Of a stretch of 64,000 bases of DNA, positions 45,317 to 64,000 are shown in pieces. Under the pieces are notes generated by a model. It saw only the letters and a program-made list of their open reading frames with translations. It was not told where the DNA came from and ran no database searches. Every line of letters begins with the position of its first letter. Within the stretch, counting starts at the first letter, position 1. A program made the translations under genes and the position numbers. The stretch is taken from positions 50,923 to 114,922 of IMG/VR virus record IMGVR_UViG_3300027797_000001; one strand, given 5' to 3'. This DNA comes from a virus.

Positions 45317-47215
45317 TTAAAATAAACTAAGTTGTGTAATAATAGGTTCAAGATCACGGATCTCCTTATTGATCTTGTCCAAGTAATAATCATAATTAAT
45401 ATCATATTCACTAAAAGGTTTATCCTTATAGTCTATCATTAGAGTCTGCAACCATTTGCCAGCCTCAATTTGTATTTCTCTGTTGTCAGTATTGTTCTTC
45501 TTAATCACCTTACTACCTGTGTTAGATATAAAATATCTGATAGTATGTTGTACTTTTTCAATTAAATACTCTCCACTAACCATCTTGTGCTCATAAAAAT
45601 TCCAGTCCCCCTTGATCTTAACACCACCACAAAAATCAAATATATTTGTGATAGATTTAATATAATCTTCGGGCTTGATGCCATCTACAAAATAAGCATG
45701 TATAGCTTTAGGGATTACAAGAAAACTTTTGTTCTTATGCATAGCAAGATTAGCAAACTCAAACCTACCCTTACATTTAGATTTACCATCTTCTGTAATA
45801 GCAATGTAATTATTTACATCACCTAGGATAATCTTAGAATACTTATCATGCTCCAGCTGTAGATTGGTTAGCTTCTCCCACCTTCTGCAGATTTCCATAT
45901 ACTTGTCTTCATACTGTTTAGGGATCATTGTTTCCAAACCATCTGTGTTTTGCATAAGTGGCAAGGCATTTGGTATTTCTTCACAAATCATCTCATACAA
46001 CATAGTAAGACTAAGTTGACCATTGATAGTGATTCTCATAGTAAACTCTGGGTCATACAAGAAACTGTTTTCATCATTAGATAAACCATAGGTTGAATTC
46101 AAGATAATCTTGTACACATAGTTCTTGGGATCTTTCTTAGGAATCTTTTTCCTTTCTTCAAAGAACCATTCATACAGATTGCAGAATTCTTCTTTAGGTA
46201 AGTGTGCAGGAGCCCACTTATTTCTAATAGCTAGATTAGGATAGAAACTAGTAACATCAGATGTCATTATTATCATCTCCTGATTAGTTTCATATACTTT
46301 AGTAGAGCGTGCACCATGAACACCACCAAGACCAAAGTCTGTCTGTACACCTTTATACCTTACAGAATATTTAAAACCACCTTTAGTTTCACCCGGGTAG
46401 ATTACTACATCCTGAAACTTCTTCAAAAGATTCTGAAAGGTAGCTGTCTTAAATTCTATATAAGGTAGTATAATATCACGGACTGTGATCTTTAACCTGT
46501 TAGTTCTCATTTTTCTGAGCTCATACTTCTTTATATCAGTATGCTTACTTAGAAAATGCATGAATAACTCTTTAGATATTCTTGGCTCAGATGCGGAATA
46601 TAAATCTATCCCATACTCATCTGTTAGTTGTTTCCTCAGATCTATTTGATCTTTACACAGAAACATGATCTGCTTGGTAGACTTGACATCATTAATACAG
46701 TATCTGATTATCTCAGGTATTTGTTCTGTAGTAACTTCAGTAGTATGATGAATAGGCATATCAATAATATTGTGCCAGTCCATAGTATACTGTATCCACT
46801 TTAAGCTAGATCTTTTTGCATTGTTGTCCCAATGGTTTAGTTTGAATACATCAAGTTGTCTGATGCTTAGGTCCCTGGGAGAATACTCCTGGAACTCACC
46901 ATTGTTACTTCTATTAATTACATCTTGTGCTTTTCTATAAATAAATCTAGCAATAGTATCACCAGATTGCTCGAGAAGCTGTTCTTTATTTCTTAAGATG
47001 TGCTCAGTGATTTGGCTATCAAATCCAATACCATTAAAACTTACATGCCATTCATTATAAGCAATGTTCTTTTCTAGAAAAGTTACCAGTTCTAGAATCT
47101 CATTCTTGCTTTCGTGAATAGTAAAGATTATTGGCTCTTCAGATTTTACTCCCTCAAAGACTGCTATGAAACAAGAGCATAAAGTTTCATAGTCCATTAC
47201 ATAGTGCTGTCTCAT
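45317..47215 (-). CDS. Family B DNA polymerase with 3'-5' exonuclease
   Basis: The product is 632 residues. Exonuclease motifs: DYE (8-10), NGIGFD (61-66) and YCIND (172-176). Polymerase motifs: A, DVTSFYPNLAIRN (D320); B, KIILNSTYG (369-377); and C, QNTDG (422-426), where the usual YGDTDS is altered but the metal-binding Asp is kept. It is short for a family B enzyme, so it probably has reduced N-terminal and thumb regions. Known: crAss-like phages carry either a family A or a family B replicative polymerase. It is the first gene after the hairpin at 47247..47275 and is followed by the acidic-tailed 408-residue gene. An internal ATG at 47197 would remove exonuclease motif I, so 47215 is preferred. 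Confidence 0.95.
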   Translation of the reverse strand: MRQHYVMDYETLCSCFIAVFEGVKSEEPIIFTIHESKNEILELVTFLEKNIAYNEWHVSFNGIGFDSQITEHILRNKEQLLEQSGDTIARFIYRKAQDVINRSNNGEFQEYSPRDLSIRQLDVFKLNHWDNNAKRSSLKWIQYTMDWHNIIDMPIHHTTEVTTEQIPEIIRYCINDVKSTKQIMFLCKDQIDLRKQLTDEYGIDLYSASEPRISKELFMHFLSKHTDIKKYELRKMRTNRLKITVRDIILPYIEFKTATFQNLLKKFQDVVIYPGETKGGFKYSVRYKGVQTDFGLGGVHGARSTKVYETNQEMIIMTSDVTSFYPNLAIRNKWAPAHLPKEEFCNLYEWFFEERKKIPKKDPKNYVYKIILNSTYGLSNDENSFLYDPEFTMRITINGQLSLTMLYEMICEEIPNALPLMQNTDGLETMIPKQYEDKYMEICRRWEKLTNLQLEHDKYSKIILGDVNNYIAITEDGKSKCKGRFEFANLAMHKNKSFLVIPKAIHAYFVDGIKPEDYIKSITNIFDFCGGVKIKGDWNFYEHKMVSGEYLIEKVQHTIRYFISNTGSKVIKKNNTDNREIQIEAGKWLQTLMIDYKDKPFSEYDINYDYYLDKINKEIRDLEPIITQLSLF

Positions 47216-63587: not shown

Positions 63588-63809
63588 TTACTTATCTAAT
63601 TTAATCTGATTCTCATCTAGTATCTCATAGAACTTGTTCCGGATTCTTTCTACCATATCCCATTCTTCTTGCTTAAGTTCTTCATACTTCCATAGTGTTC
63701 TCAGCTCTTGAGATATATCCCATAATGCTGAGTGCATATTACTACCTTGTATAGCAAAATCAAATTCTGCTTGATCTTCCGGTAAATTAAAGGTTATTTT
63801 TGCTTTCAT
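63588..63809 (-). CDS. Conserved phage protein (MKAxITFNLPED type)
   Basis: The product is 73 residues. MKAKITFNLPEDQAEFDFAIQGSNMHSALWDISQELRTLWKY matches a short conserved phage protein that I recognise by pattern (TFNLPED then a G-x-x-x-x-x-AL...LR...KY helix). Function is unknown; it occurs across unrelated phages. It is the first complete gene downstream of the palindrome at 63840..63876. Confidence 0.8.
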   Translation of the reverse strand: MKAKITFNLPEDQAEFDFAIQGSNMHSALWDISQELRTLWKYEELKQEEWDMVERIRNKFYEILDENQIKLDK

Positions 63810-63839
63810 AGTTCTTGTTGTTTAAAGGTTTCTCAATTA

Positions 63840-63876
63840 ATTATGTCACAAATATCTCCTATATTTGTGACATAAT
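63840..63876. promoter_or_regulatory. Perfect 16-bp-arm palindrome, candidate operator or replication site
   Basis: ATTATGTCACAAATAT (63840-63855) and ATATTTGTGACATAAT (63861-63876) are perfect inverted repeats around a 5-base centre. Neither strand has a U-tract after the stem, so it is not a standard terminator. The plus strand also reads TATATTTG (TAnnTTTG) in the right arm. The 128-base gap holds no ORF. It may bind a dimeric repressor or a replication initiator. Confidence 0.7.
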
Positions 63877-63937
63877 AAAAAGTTTATAGACTTAAAATTT
63901 GTAAAGTTTTTTAAGTTTATAAGCCTATAACCTGATA

Positions 63938-64000
63938 TTATTCAGGTAATTCTTCTCCATCTTTACCAGTAACTATACCCATTAGCTGTTGCATAATGGC
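63938..64000 (-). CDS. C-terminal end of a gene running off the window
   Basis: A minus-strand frame enters from the right edge and ends AIMQQLMGIVTGKDGEELPE with TAA at 63938-63940. Only 20 residues are visible, so the product cannot be named. A weak CCTGA/TCAGG hairpin (63931-63946) overlaps the stop. Confidence 0.5.
   Translation of the reverse strand, partial: AIMQQLMGIVTGKDGEELPE

Follow-up and report, generated by a model that had tools for sequence, protein, structure and literature searches.

The locus and its surroundings

The window, by which we mean the whole 64,000-nucleotide stretch of DNA analysed here, covers the final 64 kb of a 115-kb phage record (G000) that is apparently near-complete, related phages measuring 113.5-114.9 kb, about equal to its own length. 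None of the 30 window genes of at least 120 aa is preceded by a Shine-Dalgarno motif (background 7.9%), which fits the Bacteroidota host that we infer for this phage. Very large reading frames (1694, 1063, 1118, 975, 1080, 2571, 3508 and 2391 aa) follow one another through positions 457-43770 of the plus strand and possibly encode virion RNA polymerase or structural proteins; the first two of these (1694 and 1063 aa) have no PHROG match.

The palindrome lies in a spacer (Table 1) that had been described as the widest non-coding gap of the window but ranks second or third: according to which start codons are permitted, there are gaps of 195 or 136 bases in other places. It reads ATTATGTCACAAATAT-CTCCT-ATATTTGTGACATAAT, with complementarity at 16 of 16 arm positions (16-5-16), and is the sole perfect inverted repeat in the 64-kb window with arms of 16 or more bases and a loop no longer than 10. 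The chance expectation for such repeats in 64 kb of the same base composition is about 0.001, and the perfect symmetry originally reported stands. Folded as RNA, it forms a 16-bp stem of -17.6 kcal/mol (z about -7 to -10). The view that it lacks terminator features likewise holds, since no U-tract follows it on either strand and it is not among the predictions of a terminator scan of the window; an intrinsic terminator was rejected because of the missing U-tract. The locus matches no known RNA family and has no nucleotide similarity to named phages.

Table 1. Features at and around the palindrome, in window coordinates; operator assignments are predictions
Feature	Position	Strand	Remarks
73-aa gene	63588-63809	-	Start 34 bases from operator core; no known family
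128-base spacer	63810-63937	n/a	Between two minus-strand genes; TGTC-type dyads gained and lost among related phages
37-bp perfect palindrome	63840-63876	n/a	Arms 63840-63855 and 63861-63876; centre CTCCT (+) / AGGAG (-)
29-bp predicted operator core, TGTCACAAAT-N9-ATTTGTGACA	63844-63872	n/a	Half-sites 63844-63849 and 63867-63872; TGTCAC class of DUF6088/AbiEi operators
Match to Bacteroidota -7 box TAnnTTTG, TATATTTG	63860-63867	+	Points right, away from 73-aa gene
Probable decayed second operator, TGTCAAGT-N14-ACTTGACA class	63900-63937	-	From comparison with relatives
Upstream gene, 3' end (..EELPE*)	63938-64000	-	Truncated by record end

The core of the palindrome occurs once in the 114,922-base record, even when three mismatches are allowed. 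The sequence TAnnTTTG is the consensus of the Bacteroidota -7 promoter box, and most other phage and host copies of the dyad have such a box facing the regulated gene. The window palindrome does not: the minus strand carries GATATTTG at the corresponding position, and no TTG is found at the usual 19-21 spacing upstream of the plus-strand match. The 73-aa gene has 52 viral relatives, among which the window dyad is intact in L246 (from the same record as L009, discussed below), has another centre in L269 and is decayed in L262 (TGTCGCAAATATAGGAGATACTTGAGACA); it is absent from most of the others. At the spacer position of the second dyad in Table 1, a TGTCAAGT-class dyad is perfect in L283 and near-perfect in L278, L281 and L262. 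By these comparisons, the spacer gains and loses dyads of at least two antitoxin classes among relatives. Given this turnover and the orientation of the -7 match, control of the 73-aa gene by the window site stays putative; with the match facing away from this gene, the site may affect antisense transcription, or its role may be confined to binding (titration).

The dyad marks DUF6088/AbiEii loci in Bacteroidota

A 20-base form of the core is found in bacterial genomes almost only among Bacteroidota, with exactly one copy in each of the 20 genomes scanned whole. Within 400 bp of 97 of the 126 genomic copies (several of those lacking such a neighbour are cut by contig ends) lies a gene encoding some 200 aa, whose product Pfam identifies as DUF6088 (PF19570, E 2.6e-83) and which is followed by a gene for AbiEii (PF08843, E 1.6e-39); PADLOC labels the pair AbiEi and AbiEii. 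The distance from dyad to start codon peaks at 15-20 bp in the Bacteroidota copies, and the right arm contains TAnnTTTG, which faces the gene in 62 of the 73 cases and the opposite way in 6. The window core, TGTCACAAATATCTCCTATATTTGTGACA, has the same arms and the same length as the sites upstream of DUF6088 genes. Among 198 evenly drawn Bacteroidota genomes, five contain the exact palindrome, in four cases directly before DUF6088, and strong DUF6088 genes are themselves present in only about 6-8% of sampled genomes. With so few genomes containing its exact core (the same 5 of 198), the site is not a chromosomal dif, of which nearly every chromosome has a single copy, and the Xer dif candidate was rejected. 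From these correspondences, the window palindrome is very probably an operator of the DUF6088/AbiEi antitoxin, TGTCAC class. Genomic copies without DUF6088 at four loci (L130, L134, L154 and L237) lie about 130-320 bp from genes for XRE/HipB-like regulators, neighbours from which a second regulator family may share the dyad. No solved structure is related to DUF6088 by sequence.

DUF6088 genes without the TGTCAC letters are preceded by the same 29-bp dyad with letters altered in both arms (CGTCCC, TGTCCC, TGTCGC or TGTCAG); in a further variant, CGTCAC, the change is in the left arm only. For every one of the 22 dyad-bearing DUF6088 genes of Flavobacteriaceae, the operator letters agree with the recognition helix, a pattern unaffected by the kinship among these genes that weakens its statistics: 1) TGTCAC with R[KQ]xLxRL (n=8); 2) TGTAAC with RLALHR[IL] (n=8); 3) TGTCCC with KKSLLRL (n=6). 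The genes of the third pairing fall into two subgroups that are otherwise dissimilar, three DUF6088 genes with an HTALHRL helix have no such dyad, and one bacterial genome (G376) has two DUF6088 genes and two operator classes. On this sequence evidence, the dyad serves as a protein operator, its letters following a specificity code, and a family of winged-HTH repressors is predicted to bind it. The original suggestion of an operator for a dimeric regulator is borne out to this extent, the identical dyad being the promoter-overlapping site of predicted winged-HTH repressors whose helix co-varies with its letters. From such a code, the DUF6088 partner of a given phage promoter can be predicted. 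At eleven loci, dyads of the form TGTCCAGT-N-ACTGGACA or TGTCAAGT-N-ACTTGACA precede genes for divergent AbiEi-like proteins about 250 aa long; phages with dyads of these types are L112, L283 and G675, in the last of which the dyad is upstream of RecA.

Copies without a repressor gene in phages

The long form TGTCACAAATAT-N5-ATATTTGTGACA recurs in eight other virus records, against no match for a scrambled palindrome of the same composition; one of the eight, L009, is a near-identical relative of the window phage, and the rest have other 5-base centres and other surroundings. Matches to TGTCACAAA-N11-TTTGTGACA were found in at least 120 viral stretches, compared with 7 for a scrambled control, and YGTCSCAAAT-N9-ATTTGSGACR, representing the TGTCGC and YGTCCC classes, in 65 virus stretches, of which just one (L360) has DUF6088. 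From 125 viral matches, the 40 that overlap long reading frames were set aside as possible coding coincidences. At ten loci the palindrome lies inside a conserved, zinc-ribbon-like phage frame (..EWCVTN..ICDK..), where it may have arisen by coincidence in the coding sequence or represent a site embedded in the gene. The description "unique and unconserved", raised with the original prediction as grounds against it, fits the site in its own genome, where it is single, and in close relatives, where it is poorly conserved; it fails further afield, the site being widely recurrent elsewhere.

Profile searches of the window phage record found neither a DUF6088 gene nor a DUF6088 N-terminal domain, and the agreement of its length with that of its relatives makes it unlikely that the gene is merely missing from the record. 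Because the record holds no repressor gene, we speak of an orphan operator rather than an abiE locus. Among viral loci of the TGTCAC class, DUF6088 is nearby only in L004, the flank of which is identical to Porphyromonas DNA. A PF19570 search of 51 whole virus records found no DUF6088, and the N-terminal domain was absent at E <= 1 from sets of 46 and 25 virus records, with positive controls in each case; a phage-encoded DUF6088 was rejected on this basis.

At the non-coding viral loci the dyad often stands 12-35 bp before a phage gene, the genes belonging to 38 protein clusters in all and including those for RecA, a DnaG-like primase, GroEL, ERF and a 2OG oxygenase, among others. In representatives with the dyad at 10-40 bp, a -7 box faces only toward the gene in 12, only away from it in 3, both ways in 6 and neither way in 2. 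Most close relatives within the primase family have one right-arm substitution (TTTGTGATA), and distant ones have the promoter without the dyad. Phages G673 and G683 each contain dyads of two classes, which argues against a single phage repressor.

Several arrangements are more elaborate. In L112, TGTCCAGT/ACTGGACA is interleaved with TGTCACAAA/TTTGTGACA at one phage promoter; L019 and L106 have chained dyads with shared arms at a spacing of about 22 bp; and in L379 and L393 a triple-arm dyad, TGTCGCAAATTTGCGACAAATTTGCGACA, is found 15 bp from a gene that starts MGSIAYYLDIRRAKKDGTYPVKLYVSHH and resembles a phage-type integrase. Two cultured phages also contain the site: in Tenacibaculum phage pT24 (L298) it is intergenic, at 46053-46085, with no gene annotated there, and in Maribacter phage Panino (L299) it is flanked by a small gene and a cluster of tRNA genes, with GroEL encoded nearby and again no gene annotated at the site.

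Symmetric letter turnover at an HNH-gene promoter

Relatives of one phage gene, of the HNH type, were gathered by protein, independently of the motif; no such gene was found in the window phage. In the clade at 83-100% identity, nearly all members have the dyad 18-19 bp before the start, with half-sites TGTCGC, YGTCCC, TGTCAC, TGCCAY, TGACGT, AGTCCC, TCCCAT and GGTTAC, that is at least eight classes in which both arms are altered together; more distant members have TGTAAC or TGTCAC. Of 52 HNH cases, 39 have outer hexamers pairing at 5-6 of 6 positions, versus 15 of 2600 shuffled ones. In L425, L439 and L445 pairing is confined to these hexamers and the inner arm is unpaired, which points to protein half-sites and against a plain hairpin. 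Among the letters found in phages, TGCCAT, TGACGT, TCCCAT, AGTCCC and GGTTAC have no DUF6088 partner among the known classes.

Proposed function and alternatives

We propose that the palindrome is an AbiEi/DUF6088 operator carried without its repressor gene and that it is probably bound by a trans-acting repressor of the AbiEi type; this repressor is more likely than not supplied by the host or by another element, the host being the probable source. A DUF6088 winged-HTH dimer, produced by an AbiE type IV toxin-antitoxin locus of the host or by a co-resident mobile element, would contact the two TGTCAC half-sites, the centres of which are 23 bp apart. In other phages, where an arm overlaps the -7 box of the gene, such binding would repress the gene, and repression would lift once the antitoxin had been titrated away or lost, that is, with AbiE being triggered. 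Binding of this repressor to phage DNA, its host origin and its role for the phage are what we infer; the phage could use a host antitoxin for timing its genes, for responding to antitoxin loss when AbiE fires or for titrating the antitoxin. Against a host repressor stands the rarity of strong DUF6088 genes (in about 6-8% of sampled genomes, as given above) while nearly all HNH-clade phages keep the dyad: either the hosts of these phages are enriched in DUF6088 loci, or other AbiEi families share the same geometry, or a phage regulator is involved. The idea that the palindrome is a master switch of the phage found no support: the phage has a single copy, in most relatives it is absent or degraded, and no regulator gene was found.

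The last of these ways out, a dimeric regulator encoded by the phages themselves, with the same half-site spacing and evolving in step with its operator in the manner of phage immunity systems, is a serious but rather unlikely alternative. It would account for the retention of the dyad by nearly all HNH-clade phages though DUF6088 hosts seem uncommon, and for the fast half-site change among close relatives, some of it to letters absent upstream of DUF6088. It is hard to reconcile with the failure to detect any DUF6088-like N-terminal domain in phages even at E <= 1, with the commonest phage letters being those of host antitoxin classes, with the paired classes of G673 and G683, and with the occurrence of one site per class per phage and the sharing of classes by very unrelated phages.

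Somewhat more doubtful is a decoy or trigger, in which the site binds the antitoxin without regulating any phage gene, and phage DNA, as it replicates, draws the repressor away from the host abiE promoter, so that the toxin fires (the site then acting as a host sensor) or the system is disturbed to the phage's gain. The AbiE antitoxin does repress its own operon (PMC3985639), the window site has no good gene-facing promoter and some viral copies do not adjoin a start codon. However, many phage copies stand close before a start with the -7 box predominantly directed toward the gene, the exact spacing kept at the HNH promoter is not something a pure decoy would need, and toxin release is of no obvious help to a phage.

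An RNA or DNA hairpin, serving as terminator, processing site or mRNA stabiliser, is very improbable. The strong 16-bp stem and the stem-like joint variation of the HNH-promoter arms would suit it, yet besides the absent U-tract and the unpaired inner arms noted above, the bacterial copies overlap the -7 box and therefore lie upstream of the transcript, and the letters follow the HTH helix. Least credible of all is a recombination (dif/att) site or replication origin, which the frequent single copy per genome, the variable centre and the location of some copies beside tRNAs might suggest, because the bacterial copies sit at promoters and are tied to one gene. The GC skew has no sign change within the last 10 kb (the record ends 128 bases past the site), and the replication site originally entertained finds no support.

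Returning to an orphan operator read by an AbiEi-type repressor, the anti-phage toxin-antitoxin system AbiE is widespread, and to our knowledge it is not clear how it senses infection. If phage promoters carry the operator of its antitoxin, the antitoxin would itself bind phage DNA directly, offering a testable route for the triggering of AbiE or for its use by phages. The symmetric letter changes in many unrelated phages point to a previously unrecognised regulatory contest with host defence genes. More tentatively, it is possible that Bacteroidota phages widely put their own promoters (RecA, primase, GroEL, ERF, HNH and others) under host AbiE operators and switch class as hosts change AbiE specificity, in an arms race, the phage reading, exploiting or titrating the abortive-infection state. 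In the non-subscription literature searched, we found no description of DUF6088 operators or of phage-borne antitoxin operators; no papers with the 12-mer arm were found, and shorter arms retrieved unrelated papers only.

Comparison with known systems

Heteroimmune temperate phages have repressors whose operator specificity diverges among relatives. The phage sites resemble those of such immunity repressors in the symmetric half-site changes at orthologous phage promoters, and differ in that no cognate repressor was found in the phages, some phages contain two classes, and the commonest letters are those of host antitoxin classes.

Another parallel is the abiE system of Streptococcus agalactiae, in which AbiEi has been shown experimentally to repress its own promoter via inverted repeats (PMC3985639, PMC7319586; see also Hampton et al. 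2018, as cited in PMC7725324). Both involve a winged-HTH type IV antitoxin, predicted in the present case, and a promoter-overlapping inverted repeat that has TGT as its first letters and stands a short way from the start codon. The S. agalactiae repeat, however, consists of two 23-bp arms 3 bp apart (TGTTGCTTTTA-N27-TAAAAGCAACA) beside its own gene, whereas the window site is a 29-bp dyad of the predicted DUF6088 type, an orphan in a phage. Pairs of AbiEii and DUF6088 have been predicted as toxin-antitoxin systems (PMC12654330), and DUF6088 has been called distantly related to AbiEi (PMC11128244). These Bacteroidota AbiEii/DUF6088 loci, recognised by the PADLOC AbiE models, offer a further likeness: the window phage, while carrying neither gene, has the same 29-bp dyad, the same TGTCAC letters and the same centre.
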